A DNA stretch of 64,000 nucleotides, taken from contig MDYQ01000003.1 in the NCBI GenBank assembly GCA_003024175.1, positions 124,001 to 188,000 on the forward strand, written 5' to 3'. The notes beneath the pieces were generated by a model. The model worked only from the letters and a program-made list of their open reading frames with translations. It was not told where the DNA came from and did not search any database. This DNA comes from Planoprotostelium fungivorum (lineage: Eukaryota; Evosea; Variosea; Cavosteliida; Cavosteliaceae). This document shows, in pieces, positions 1 to 64,000 of this stretch. The translations under genes were made by a program, and so were the position numbers. Numbering within the stretch: the first letter of the stretch is position 1; every line of letters starts with the position of its first letter.

Positions 1-2202
1 TAGATCCTGAACCATTCTAGTTCGGTGCAGACAAAGCGGGCCAGCTGAAAAAGCGAGGTAGGACACTTCCGGCGATCATTTGAGCATTCCATCTAATCGT
101 CCACAGGTCACTTTGTGAAGAACTGGAAGCAGAGATGGTGAGAGGACGCATGCCGGAGTCTAGATTTTCGTTGACCCTCTGAAGGTTCATTCTAAAGGGA
201 GACAAATTGTATTATTTCAGAGATAAGCCAGACAGCAGGGTGAGGATTTTCACTCTACCAACCGACCTCTCGCTGACATTGTATCTGTAGCTGGACCGTC
301 CTGCGGGAATCATTTACCTGAAGAACTCTGGCTTCAATCGCATACAGCAAGACAAAAACCCTTCTGGAAGTCTACCCTACTGCTTTGAGATCGTCGAGAC
401 TGATAATGATCCATATAATCGAAACTACATGATCTCCACAGACTCCGAGGAGGTGAGTTGCCCGACACCTTCCTCTTCTCTGTCACTTCGTTAGTCGTGA
501 GATCATTTCGGATGATGATGATATGCAGGTCTTCAATGATTGGGCGAGGTCGCTGGAGAGATTCACACCCAATTACGAAGCCACACCTGGCGCAGAGAGG
601 AAGGCGGTGAGTCCTCCCCATCGTCTCATCGACTCACACCTCACAGACGGGACAGGAACAGAAGAACGTTAGTCATCATCACCTTCATCTCATCCATCAT
701 CACTCATCATCATCCATCGTCATCCATCATTATCATCCCCATCGCATCACCGCGATCGAGTCGATGAAATGTCATCCAGTTACCACCTGAATGGCAAGAC
801 ATGATGAGGCTGACGGGTATCACACCCGAAGACTACAAGACAGCCCCCGATAAGGTCAGCGACGTTCTCTCCTTCCAGCAGTCCTGGACGAGTTACGTAT
901 CAGACAAGGCCGAAATTCCTCTACCCAGAGAGACCACGCAACCTCAATTGGGTGAGCCATCGTTTTACAATGAGCCATTTCGAATTTCATTCATTTTCAT
1001 TCAGAGGATCTCGTCAGTAAGGATGATCCATACGCTATCTACCAAGGCCTGCACAAGTTGGGAGAGGGGTGAATCCATTCATCCGTTTATCCGTTTATCC
1101 GAACCCACTCTAAAGAAACCAGTGCCTTCGGTGACGTGTGGTCTGCAGTCAACACGAAGACCAACGAGAAGGTGAATCTACACCGTTGTAGATGGAAGAC
1201 TGACCCATCAGGTGGCCATCAAGAAGATGGAAGTGACGCGAAAGAACAAAAAGTATGTCATCAACGAGATCATCAACCAGAGGGCTGTCTCTACTCACCC
1301 CAATGTCGTCAAGTTTATGGAATCTTACATCGCAGACAACCTCCTATGGGTGCGTGGTCACGTGACGTCATCGCAAAACTGAAGGAAGAAGGTGGTGCTG
1401 GAATACATGGGCGGTGGAAATCTGACTGCCATCACCGATATGCATCACGCACCCAGTCCTCTATATCTGAAAGAACCACACATCGCTTACGTCACCATGG
1501 AGATATTGAAGTCTCTATCTTACCTCCATTCACTCCACAGGAGTGAGTCGTGGCGGGTTGTAGACGGAGGAATTGACTCGTTGTAGTTCACCGAGACATC
1601 AAGACGGATAACGTGTTGATTGGAGACAGTGGAGAGATCAAGTTGGCAGATTTCGGTGTGTTTTCTCAGTGAAATTTCGATTGAATCTCCGCAGGTTTCG
1701 CCGTACAGCTGACCGAGCAGAAGCAGAAGAGAAAGACTGTCATCGGCACCCGTGGGTCTCCATCTACAACGAGACGTTTCACTGATATACGACTTCAGCT
1801 TACTGGATGGCACCCGAGATCATTCAGAACAAAGAGTACGGAAAGGAAGTCGACATATGGAGTCTCGGCATCATGATCATGGAGGTGATGACGATCATCT
1901 CCAGTCCATCCACTGAAGAATTGTAGATGGCTGAAGGTGAACCACCTTTCATCAAGCTCCCCCAGGGTAAAGCATTGTTCTTGATCACTACCACCGGGCC
2001 TCCCCCTCTCAAGAAACAAAAGTCTTGGTCTGAGTCATTCAAACACTTCCTGTCGCTGTGTCTCCAGCTGGACGCCACCAAGAGAGCGAGGGCGGAAGTT
2101 CTCATGCAGCATCCCTTCCTGAAGCAGGCTTGCACTGGCATGGACTTTAAGAATCTGATCTCCCAGTCGAAGAGTGCCAACGGAGGTTGCACACTGTTGT
2201 GA
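1..2202 (+). CDS. PAK/STE20-family protein kinase with PH domain (5' partial)
   Basis: Spliced exons read through a PH domain (GQLKKRG at about 40-57, then [19 protein letters not shown] at about 118-215, ending near 600). A PAK p21-binding/autoinhibitory-type segment follows at 782-890 ([19 protein letters not shown] ... VSDVLSFQQ), then a complete STE20-type kinase. Visible catalytic motifs are [32 protein letters not shown] plus YWMAPE, and VDIWSLG. A classical CRIB HxxH core was not found. The family acts downstream of Rac/Cdc42 on actin and MAPK signalling. The reading frame is already in the PH domain at base 31, so the start lies outside the window. The protein ends in CTLL, a possible CaaX geranylgeranylation box. 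About nine short introns interrupt it, several with the TCTACAACG-type motif. Confidence 0.88.
1177..1192. repeat. 16-bp near-palindrome in an intron of the PAK-like gene
   Basis: TCTACACCGTTGTAGA has 6-bp inverted arms TCTACA/TGTAGA. It sits in the intron that starts GTGAATCTAC after NTKTNEK and ends before VAIKKM. Its reverse complement occurs exactly at 59077-59092, and close relatives lie at 25627 and 29573. Confidence 0.8.
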
Positions 2203-2431
2203 GAGAAAATGGATGTAAACATATACGTTTGATCTGTACTTCTTGTCGTCGTATCTTTCCTCGATTTTTATGTTGCATGCAAGATGAAGTACTATAGATG
2301 TGATAGACTGAACCGTATGACGCTAGCTCTGAACAAGGATGTGAGGAGGTGATGCGTTTTGTCGCGTCCGTAAATGTTTGAGTACCTTATACGTCGGAGA
2401 TAGAGGATGAAAACAAAGAAGCAAAATTGTA

Positions 2432-3145
2432 TTAATTCTCTACGCGTTGATATGGCATGGGTGGTTGTTGCTCTTCGTGGCCCGTTGGACACTTGAGCTG
2501 GTTGACGATGGAGAGGTCTTGCAGATGACATTTTGCAATGAAGAGGAGAAAGACGTCCAAGAGGTCTCGAAGGTTATCCCCGACCACTAGATCATCACAT
2601 GGAAACATCTGTAAGAGTTTCTCTAAGATGGCTCGGAGTTCGGGCGTGCTGGGGCATGAAGAACCGGGCGGAAGTAGACCTGCAACTCTTGTCAGGTGGA
2701 GAATTTTGTGAGGACAGTGTTTTACCTCGCATGATCAGATAGTCTGTAACGTGCCTCTGTGCGATGGAGGGATAGCTGTTGTTCCACGATGTCTTGTGGT
2801 TTTTCATCTGAGACAATATCGGTATGGCGGAGCTCATTGTTGGTGGAGGGATCAGAGCGGGAGAGGTAATAGAATCGGTCGATGTTGTGTCTGTCCTCTT
2901 TTGCTCCTGTTCCTCAGCAATAGCCTTCCATCCTTTCTCTCGTCGGTCATTTGTCACCTTTCTCCTGTGCCTTCCTTTGTCTGATTGCTCATATTGTCTC
3001 TTTCTCGCCTATTTCGGGTCACCCTCCGCATTGACACCATTGCAATCACCTTGTATTGCGGTGCGTTCGATCGGCAGACCTCGCACCATCCTGTCTTGTG
3101 CAGCGTCACACGCTTTTGGCATTTTATGCAGTCTGTAGAGGCCAT
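2432..3145 (-). CDS. Zinc-ribbon hypothetical protein
   Basis: Starts MASTDCIKCQKRVTLHKTG, where two CxxC pairs (CIKC ... CEVC) within the first 25 residues suggest a small zinc ribbon. Joining three introns gives a charged middle (ARKRQYEQSDKGRHRRK, then DRHNIDRFYYLSRSD) and a helical C-terminal part (LRAILEKLLQMFPCDDLVV ... DLLDVFLLFIAKCHLQDLSI) ending YQRVEN. I do not recognise the family. The frame chosen for the two later exons is the only one that stays open across them. The gene ends 230 bp from the convergent kinase gene. Start and first exon are clear; the position of the first intron (GTGATTGCAATG..) is a best guess. Confidence 0.6.
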
Positions 3146-62379: not shown

Positions 62380-63590
62380 ATGAGAGTCGGTAGAGCTTGT
62401 GATGAGTGCCGTACAGGTCATCACTGTTGTAGTAAAGGTATGGCAAGACAGAACATCGTGATTGTGATGGCTGTACAGAGCGACCGTGTGCCCACTGTCT
62501 GGCAGTTGGTGTGGATTGTGTCACGACCTCTAAGAGGAGGAGATCACACGAGAATGGATCGATCGGTTCCGTGGTACAATTACCATCCATTTTGAACACC
62601 ACATTACCTCCTATTCTCAATCACAATATCCCGTCTTCACCTATGTTGGGAGTACAGACATCTCCAACCATCGGGCCACCTTTGTCCTCGCCGAATAGTG
62701 CAATCTTTGAAGACGTACAAACACAATCTTACACAGACACTAATTGGTTATACAAAGGTATTCCCACATACGTGACCTTCCACCTTATCCATAGCTGATC
62801 ATTTTGAGAAGACGATGACATGCCTCATTTCATACGTGACTTTCTTTATGGAACGCCACAAGTAGAACCACCAAGCCTTCCAACTTTGCTGATGGATCAC
62901 GATCTCCCTCCATCACTGTGGCTCTCTGAGCCTTATGAGAAAGAACAAGTCCTTCAATATCTTGCCTACAGGTGAGTGATAAAGACATGCATCACACGAA
63001 TGGAGCCGACTTCATCGCAGGGGAGTGGATGGTACAGCTGTATTCACGAACAACCCCATCGTGGAGGAATACAAACAGAGAATCAAAGACATTCGATCCA
63101 TCTTATCGAAAGAGCAGAGGAGCTCTCTTTTGGTTAATTTCAAGAAACAACTGCAGGTGATGACGATTGCAATGGTTACACTTCATGACCTATTTCATAG
63201 GACCTGATAGAAGGAGCCAATATGGTTCAGATCCCAGTCATTATCTGGGGACGAGGACACATCATCTACTTTTTAAACACGGCCTTTCGGTGATAAAGAT
63301 CTCATCCATCACCTCCACTCAACTGCATCAGGAAAGCGACCAACTGCAAATTACCCCACCCACCACCTCCCGTTCGTGGAGGACTCTTTGAGTTGATCGA
63401 TGAAGAGACGATCAAAAAGCTCATCGAGATGGTGCCGACGGTCGTGTGTTCTACAGATAAGTCGAGCTCGAACCTCAAGTTCGTCTTTCGAAACAGTGTG
63501 GGTGGACGTGGCATCATCACGGTCAAGAGGGACCTCTTTGGACTGCCCCATTTGTATTGTCTTCATTTCATCCCTGATGTCATTGAATAA
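62380..63590 (+). CDS. Zn2Cys6 transcription factor with possible PAS-like C-terminus
   Basis: Starts MRVGRACDECRT. Removing a 35-nt intron (62417-62451, GTCATC..ACAG) joins it to EHRDCDGCTERPCAHCLAVG and VDCVTTSKRRRSHEN. This gives C-x2-C-x6-C-x7-C-x2-C-x6-C, the exact fungal binuclear zinc cluster spacing, followed by a basic KRRR segment. Later exons read DDDMPHFIRDFLYGTPQVEP, KQRIKDIRSILSKEQRSSLL, GRGHIIYFLNTAFR and SNLKFVFRNSVGGRGIITVK, ending FIPDVIE. The C-terminal block resembles the PAS-like region of the Ert1/AcuK class, which is a tentative comparison. Zn2Cys6 factors are abundant in fungi and few outside them. Seven introns. Confidence 0.82.
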
Positions 63591-63673
63591 ATGTATATAG
63601 ATCTGCCTCTTCACAGCTGATCTGTCATCTTCTCATGGTGAACACGAACAGTCATACATCTCTTCCTCTTTAT

Positions 63674-64000
63674 TCACACAGGTACCGACGAATTCACTCC
63701 GTCCTTCAATCCATTCTTCGGGACGTACTCTTCCATGAAAGGTCTCATCACACGATCGACTGCCTCCTATCATCTCATCAGCGACACCGTCTCATCAAAT
63801 TCCTTCTTTCACCTTCGTTCTACAATAGTCACCCCCACAGTCATAGAAGATGGCTCCCACGAGCGATTCGAATACATCCGATAGACACTTGGGTGCCTTC
63901 ACTGGAGGTCTCTCGTTGTAGACGAGACACTTTTCTACATATTCACGATATTCTCCGATGGCCTTCATCAGGGCCGGTGATCTACACCGTACGTACCGAT
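63674..64000 (-). CDS. RNase III domain protein, Dicer-like (5' partial)
   Basis: Reading leftward from the window edge: RSPALMKAIGEYREYVEKCL, then VYNERPPVKAPKCLSDVFES, LVGAIFYDCGGDYC, an intron of about 60-70 nt, and VDRVMRPFMEEYVPKNGLKD, ending SSVPV. KAPKCLSDVFESLVGAIFYD matches the second half of an RNase III catalytic domain (K.PK.L.D.FE(S/A)..GAI). The acidic D..E residues of DVFES are present. The absence of a double-stranded RNA-binding domain after it and the short C-terminus favour a Dicer-like enzyme over Drosha or a bacterial type, but the rest of the gene lies outside the window. Confidence 0.78.

Follow-up and report, generated by a model that had tools for sequence, protein, structure and literature searches.

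The 64,000-bp stretch of the Planoprotostelium fungivorum genome analysed here (contig MDYQ01000003.1, positions 124,001 to 188,000 of the forward strand; hereafter the window) contains many copies of a 9-bp word, TCTACAACG (complement CGTTGTAGA), which an initial annotation had described as dispersed across the introns of unrelated genes. Counting both strands, we found 33 exact copies in the window, compared to a mean of 0.33 and a maximum of 2 over 100 dinucleotide shuffles, and 12,082 copies (6042 + 6040) in the genome (36.86 Mb in 471 contigs), compared to 562 (266 + 296) for the reversed-word control; the recurrence is therefore real. A 16-mer, CATCTACAACGAGTCA, is present 121 + 116 times genome-wide and its control is absent. 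Each position listed in the annotation lies within 14 bp of a copy, some being 8-of-9 matches (1557, 29389) as it had itself stated. Some of its place labels disagree with the present gene model, in which 5004 is coding and 59486 is at a 3' splice site and not intergenic.

The genome comes without annotation, and genes were predicted with a self-written, self-trained hidden Markov model, trained on a 262-kb sample that consists of the window, 20 loci around CATCTACAACGAGTCA, and one further locus. The models comprise 119 genes with 976 introns (median 44 nt; consensus AG/GTGAG and CAG/, the slash marking the splice site), and were checked by splice consensus, by intron places common to paralogs, and by Pfam, for which the first 60 residues of 10 predicted window proteins gave matches at E ≤0.001 in 7 cases, 5 of them above the curated cut-off. 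The 21 introns that hold or touch CATCTACAACGAGTCA were excluded from the distance-dependent intron fractions, the test of gene heterogeneity, and the far-intron near-miss set; they were kept in the k-mer scores, flank information, class densities, orientation and 3' splice-site counts, as well as in the analyses of exon lengths, intron sharing, palindromic 12-mers, and intron density and phase. Coding densities by distance from the start include the CATCTACAACGAGTCA copies and were also recomputed without them. The sample holds 177 copies of the 9-mer against 6.5 expected, and the top over-representation scores among its 8-, 9-, and 10-mers belong to words of the TCTACAACG family.

The 33 window copies comprise 12 within short introns, 5 across 3' splice sites, 1 in a long predicted intron (assigned by elimination), 13 in coding DNA, and 2 in intergenic DNA. 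Plus-strand copies within introns are found at 1763-1771 (intron 1752-1798), 8564-8572 (intron 8542-8612, which also holds the palindrome GAAATTTC), 33523-33531 (minus-strand intron from 33499), 42946-42954 (intron 42936-42999), 56089-56097 (intron 56076-56123), 59077-59085 (intron 59041-59109, imperfect dyad), and 61015-61023 (minus-strand intron from 60993), and minus-strand copies at 1184-1192 (intron 1172-1211, imperfect dyad ATCTACACCGTTGTAGAT) and 29580-29588 (intron 29565-29612). Two further introns carry paired copies: a perfect 16-bp dyad, TCTACAACGTTGTAGA, at 25627-25642 (intron 25623-25666), and two opposed words at 26229-26264 (intron 26222-26263), the second of which runs across the 3' splice site. 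The other splice-site copies are at 29723-29731 (minus strand; intron 29689-29730, ending in TGACTCGTTGTAG before an exonic AT), 36045-36053 (plus strand; minus-strand intron from 36046), 43566-43574 (minus strand; intron 43530-43573), and 59486-59494 (minus strand; intron 59458-59493), and the copy in the long intron is at 19973-19981 (minus strand). Coding copies are found on the minus strand at 4244-4252 and 4328-4336 (gene 2432-6462), 5004-5012, and 63914-63922 (whose gene weakly matches RNase III), and on the plus strand at 38418-38426, 38502-38510, 43043-43051, 43083-43091, two places within 43769-43807, and 46543-46551; those at 5374-5382 (plus strand) and 38688-38696 (minus strand) are antisense to coding DNA. 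The intergenic copies lie 34 bp from a gene end (16595-16603, minus strand) and 70 bp from a predicted start (17205-17213, plus strand), the latter possibly in an intron of an untranslated region. Across the 262-kb sample, introns of ≤150 nt have 2.51 copies of the word per kb, compared to 0.30 for introns above this length, 0.27 for coding DNA, and 0.23 for intergenic DNA.

The concentration in short introns, together with the copies on 3' splice sites, raises the question of an RNA-level splicing signal, either an intronic enhancer, as the initial annotation had proposed among three readings, or a class of 3' splice site. Of the 976 introns, 48 end exactly in GTTGTAG, 31 of them in TGACTCGTTGTAG; the exon that follows starts with AT (A in 87%, T in 83%), and a word placed across the 3' splice site supplies TAG plus TGAC at branch-site distance. 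Over whole introns the GTTGTAGA orientation is the commoner (79 vs 42), but this bias is due to the copies on 3' splice sites, and in intron interiors, where an intronic splicing enhancer should be biased towards the sense strand, the two orientations are equally common (47 vs 42). We interpret the splice-site copies as lying in the register where part of the word is already provided by the splice signals. RNA hairpins were also considered and rejected: folding is barely below that of shuffled sequences (z -0.40 in 74 word-bearing introns, -0.14 in 387 wordless ones), and the 5' and 3' ends of introns pair no more strongly than swapped ends. With regard to nucleosome-length exons, the median exon measures 121 between two word introns and 115 between two wordless introns. 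The equal orientations and the folding results, together with the excess in exons, antisense copies included, make a splicing signal very unlikely, and of the three readings of the initial annotation the enhancer is disfavoured.

In coding DNA the word occurs 30 times in sense, compared to a mean of 3.5 (maximum 8) in 100 synonymous shuffles, and 11 times in antisense, compared to 0.27 (maximum 3), with the sense copies spread over all three reading frames. Common codons (IYN, STT), which the annotation had named as a possible cause of the excess, thus fail to explain it, save for two copies that sit in, and are explained by, a 15-bp repeat at 43733-43807 (Ser-Thr-Thr). Since the excess in exons is found in sense and antisense, it concerns the DNA level, the word being selected or propagated as DNA.

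The 9-mer forms one arm of a dyad of 18 bp, ATCTACAAC followed by GTTGTAGAT. Around 171 sites, information is limited to approximately 22 bp, and the flanks carry almost nothing. The right arm is bimodal: 27 of 177 ATCTACAAC sites, counted strand-wise so that a full dyad counts twice, agree with the palindrome at 8-9 of 9 bases, and just 2 sites agree at 5-7. Among the other 150 sites, 59 continue as NNGYCA, and 45 of these as GNGYCA (e.g. GAGTCA). A 14-bp core dyad, CTACAACGTTGTAG, is found at 750 places genome-wide and its reversed control at none; TCTACAACGTTGTAGA is not known to be identical to any established site. Introns far from gene starts contain 53 exact copies of ATCTACAACG, and the 18 forms with one mismatch in the core TCTACA together account for 2; positions of the word outside this core tolerate change. 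Because core near-misses are almost absent even though the introns of the closest paralogs are only 74% identical, the TCTACAACG copies are hardly relics, and the pattern is that of a recognised site.

The word has several features expected of a binding site: an intolerant core with tolerant flanks, dyad symmetry with fixed spacing, and occurrence in either orientation and also outside introns. The dyad is fairly likely to be the target of a dimeric protein that binds DNA sequence-specifically, and to be read in DNA and not in RNA. Of the readings offered by the initial annotation, that of a protein-binding site tolerated in introns, exons, and intergenic DNA is thus the one backed by the dyad, the two orientations, the exon excess, and a core nearly devoid of near-misses.

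Several other palindromic words behave similarly and, together with the dependence on gene-start distance described below, are additions to what the annotation had observed. TGACGTCA and GAAATTTC also reach their highest density in short introns, GAAATTTC is in excess in coding DNA (18 vs 4.0 in synonymous shuffles), and GATGACGTCATC is found at 993 places genome-wide compared to 4 for its control. Palindromic 12-mers in introns more than 900 bp from a start number 60 against 7.3 expected (mirror-word control, 4 vs 2.8); elsewhere they number 8 against 4.0 in introns near starts, 26 against 12.2 in intergenic DNA, and 28 against 38.8 in coding DNA. TGACGTCA, TTCCCGCC, and GTCACGTGAC are among the most over-represented words of the sample, and in letters they equal the textbook sites of bZIP (CRE), E2F, and bHLH (E-box) factors. 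This would suit ordinary transcription-factor sites that act as enhancers inside genes, but TGACGTCA and TTCCCGCC are scarce within 700 bp of gene starts and in intergenic DNA, where such sites usually act, and we regard this explanation as highly improbable. TTCCCGCC is also in excess in coding DNA (sense 11 vs 2.2, antisense 13 vs 1.7 in synonymous shuffles), is scarce near starts there, and is not enriched in introns. The word set further includes a non-palindromic intron word, TTTTATT/TTTATTT, that is likewise scarce near gene starts.

The fraction of introns with any word depends on how far away the closest predicted gene start lies, whichever gene it belongs to, and rises from 4% below 600 bp to 12% at 600-800 bp, 28% at 800-1000 bp, and 36-38% beyond. 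A step at 750 bp fits better (log-likelihood -333) than intron ordinal (-351) or log distance (-353). The same trend is observed in the window alone, where 2 of 69 near and 31 of 110 far introns carry words (p 7e-6), in the loci outside it (16/238 near vs 149/378 far), and in coding DNA, with 3 copies of the 9-mer in the 48.1 kb within 700 bp of a start compared to 26 in 68.5 kb of interior (25 without the CATCTACAACGAGTCA copies). The start of a neighbouring gene has the same influence: in the last 400 bp of genes, words are present in 13 of 63 introns if the neighbour is convergent and in 1 of 34 if it is tandem (p 0.017), a dependence that is hard to explain via RNA and speaks further against a splicing signal. 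In sum, the dyad occurs in either orientation, its core tolerates almost no change, and it is scarce near predicted gene starts. The enrichment near starts expected of a promoter-type transcription-factor site is not observed, and a first-intron or promoter function was rejected, the distribution being the reverse.

The third reading of the initial annotation was the footprint of an introner-like sequence, in which case the words would be terminal fragments or remnants of small mobile introns copied into many genes. Introns of different genes do have 25-39 nt in common: a score of at least 22 is reached by 65 pairs of introns, some of which come from a single locus, compared to 2 after shuffling of interiors, and for one intron (L028:5833) relatives covering nearly its full length lie at five other places, of which four are predicted introns with the same boundaries (L036, L037, L039, L040) and the fifth has no predicted intron (L038). 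Introners are, moreover, reported from 5% of species (PMC9860276). Two of the common stretches were searched genome-wide with ≤3 mismatches and found at 39 and 32 places (controls 0). We tentatively read both as two abutting words.

Other properties of the introns likewise argue against introners. Intron density per kb of coding sequence is 6.43 near starts and 6.36 far from them, while from near to far wordless introns fall from 6.01 to 3.96 and word introns rise from 0.42 to 2.40; as total density is equal, word introns replace wordless ones and are not added to them. Intron phases do not differ (p 0.33), and target-site duplications at intron ends are no more frequent than in swapped ends; neither introns at new positions nor duplications or terminal inverted repeats, the marks of introners, were found. 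The presence of sense words in all three frames of exons and the near lack of one-mismatch forms of the core are also at odds with mobile introns, and we consider an introner footprint unlikely. Ends of repeats or transposons were rejected as a source as well: among the matches listed of 388, site-flank matches of at least 25 nt were short and word-centred, the longest of 47 nt, with the exceptions of overlapping neighbours and one coding repeat.

A long gene region at 45661-51442 of the window is matched by two paralogous copies, L031 and L032, at nucleotide identities of 83% and 72%, and shares nearly all intron places with them. Word introns of this trio lie at places common to paralogs that lack the word, and because the places are common but the words are not, we conclude that old introns acquire words, which is again contrary to introners. 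The sole intronic GTTGTAGA of the trio is present in one copy only. The plus-strand introns of the region include one with TGACGTCA at 47218-47260, whose paralogous introns occupy the same place and lack the intact word, one with TGACGTCA and CGTACG at 47480-47521, one with GATGACGTGTGATGACGTCATC at 48131-48172, a sequence common to several introns of other genes, and, at 50275-50315, one whose 3' end also carries this TGACGTCA compound word. In exons, TCTACAAC at 46543, the coding copy (IYN) noted above, is intact and identical in all three paralogs, and GAAATTTC at 47441 is intact in two. Four word-rich genes had no useful close paralogs, L045 being aligned only via repetitive coding sequence.

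Turnover of sites between paralogs, together with the scarcity near gene starts, is what selfish drive would produce, with gene conversion, nuclease-directed repair, or uptake multiplying the dyads and selection purging them near promoters where bound factors do harm; dispersed 9-16-mers in both orientations also recall bacterial uptake words. Set against this, several unrelated words have the same pattern, differences between genes are not foreseen, and no nuclease or uptake system turned up, none having been sought. Drive with removal near promoters, which we judge improbable, and introners are the best rivals to the reading that we prefer.

That preferred reading, which we regard as evenly balanced between right and wrong, is that the words are maintained sites for dimeric DNA-binding proteins inside genes that are kept away from promoters. 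On the binding-site reading, most sites would fall in introns because no other DNA within genes is free of constraint. Under a possible but doubtful elaboration, the sites would serve gene interiors, most plausibly as short-range elements that silence internal promoters or set gene-body chromatin, and they would be excluded near real promoters because repression would hit those too. Taking all words together, we tentatively suggest an intragenic code of palindromic words in gene interiors, with tiny introns as carriers and a word-poor zone of ~700 bp around starts, that would be read by dimeric proteins and would set gene bodies apart from promoters.

A number of observations weigh against maintained sites. 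Genes differ in word content beyond chance (heterogeneity 110.7, compared to a mean of 45.9 and a maximum of 83.4 in 300 permutations); none of the models considered explains this, and expression, estimated via codon bias in 36 genes, shows no correlation with it. In the paralog trio, none of six intact copies of TGACGTCA (five intronic, one exonic) is intact in another copy, so that individual sites lack conservation, a finding as compatible with turnover or drive as with function. Near-misses are not scarce for two of the companions, with an excess over the near-start level of 45 for 29 exact copies of GAAATTTC and of 10 for 11 exact copies of ACAACGTTGT; since their numbers roughly equal or exceed those of the exact copies, the near-miss argument holds for TCTACAACG and not for the whole word set. 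For TGACGTCA, exons show no clear excess (7 copies vs 3.4 in shuffles, of which the largest gave 10), introns with other palindromes have weak RNA structure (z -0.83, n=39), and the last 400 bp of coding DNA in genes are not depleted of the 9-mer (7 in 19.9 kb, or 0.35 per kb, compared to 0.38 in the interior). The loci L009-L028 were picked around a copy of the 16-mer CATCTACAACGAGTCA, which inflates densities there, and the gene starts are predicted start codons and not mapped transcription starts. Lastly, three held-out loci fetched regardless of the word show the same direction with small numbers and without significance, both for TCTACAACG introns (0/40 near vs 3/47 far, p 0.25) and for introns with any word (2/40 vs 6/47, p 0.28).

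Introns this short are usually considered to contain little beyond splice signals. Those described here seem to bear a vocabulary that is maintained at the level of DNA and positioned with respect to promoters, not to splicing. If true, this would imply a role in chromatin for introns of ~40 nt, make the distinction between gene bodies and promoters accessible through sequence, and define a class of motif that resembles an introner footprint without being one. Among the papers listed in searches of open-licence literature, none was found, judging by title, that describes a palindromic intron vocabulary or this pattern.

Other features of the sample were also recorded. Three nearly identical tRNA-Val genes at 7041-7116, 13732-13807, and 23109-23184 (anticodons tac, aac, and tac) account for the 83-86-bp BLAST repeats in the window. 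A 24-bp tandem repeat of the ATCATCATCATCATCATGGCATCG type (7.5 copies, 9386-9562) lies near the end of an acetyl-CoA synthetase-like gene (7369-10324), and the partial gene at 63674-63968 matches the RNase III domain weakly (E 0.00029, short of the Pfam cut-off) and is perhaps Dicer-like. Long tandem or degenerate repeats at L009 476-1422 (~237 bp) and L028 1954-3343 are unrelated to the word.

Bacterial DNA uptake sequences and Chi are short, abundant, dispersed words that are tolerated in coding DNA, properties shared by the words described here; these differ in being found in a eukaryote, in being concentrated in introns, in depending on distance from gene starts, and in comprising several words. 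The likeness to bZIP/CRE, E2F, and E-box consensus sites extends to identity of letters in the companion words, but TGACGTCA and TTCCCGCC are scarce, not enriched, near gene starts. Periodic An/Tn clusters (PATCs) of Caenorhabditis elegans are A/T runs phased at roughly 10 bp in long introns, whereas here discrete, mostly palindromic words are found in introns of ~40 nt. PATCs are reported to be a pervasive non-coding pattern in introns that acts within the coding region and is apparently dispensable in the promoter and 3' untranslated region (PMC7725773), and a pervasive, intron-borne DNA pattern acting within the coding region is the feature to which the present words may be likened. Introners have in common with our observations a sequence that recurs in introns of unrelated genes (PMC9860276); here there are no extra introns and no duplicated ends, and words are present in exons too. 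The internally symmetrical stwintrons of Hypoxylaceae are related introns with inverted-repeat symmetry (PMC8469720), but the symmetry here lies within short words inside introns whose ends pair no more than swapped ones. The nearest analogue in class of function would be the PATCs, and the nearest in appearance are introners and symmetrical stwintrons.

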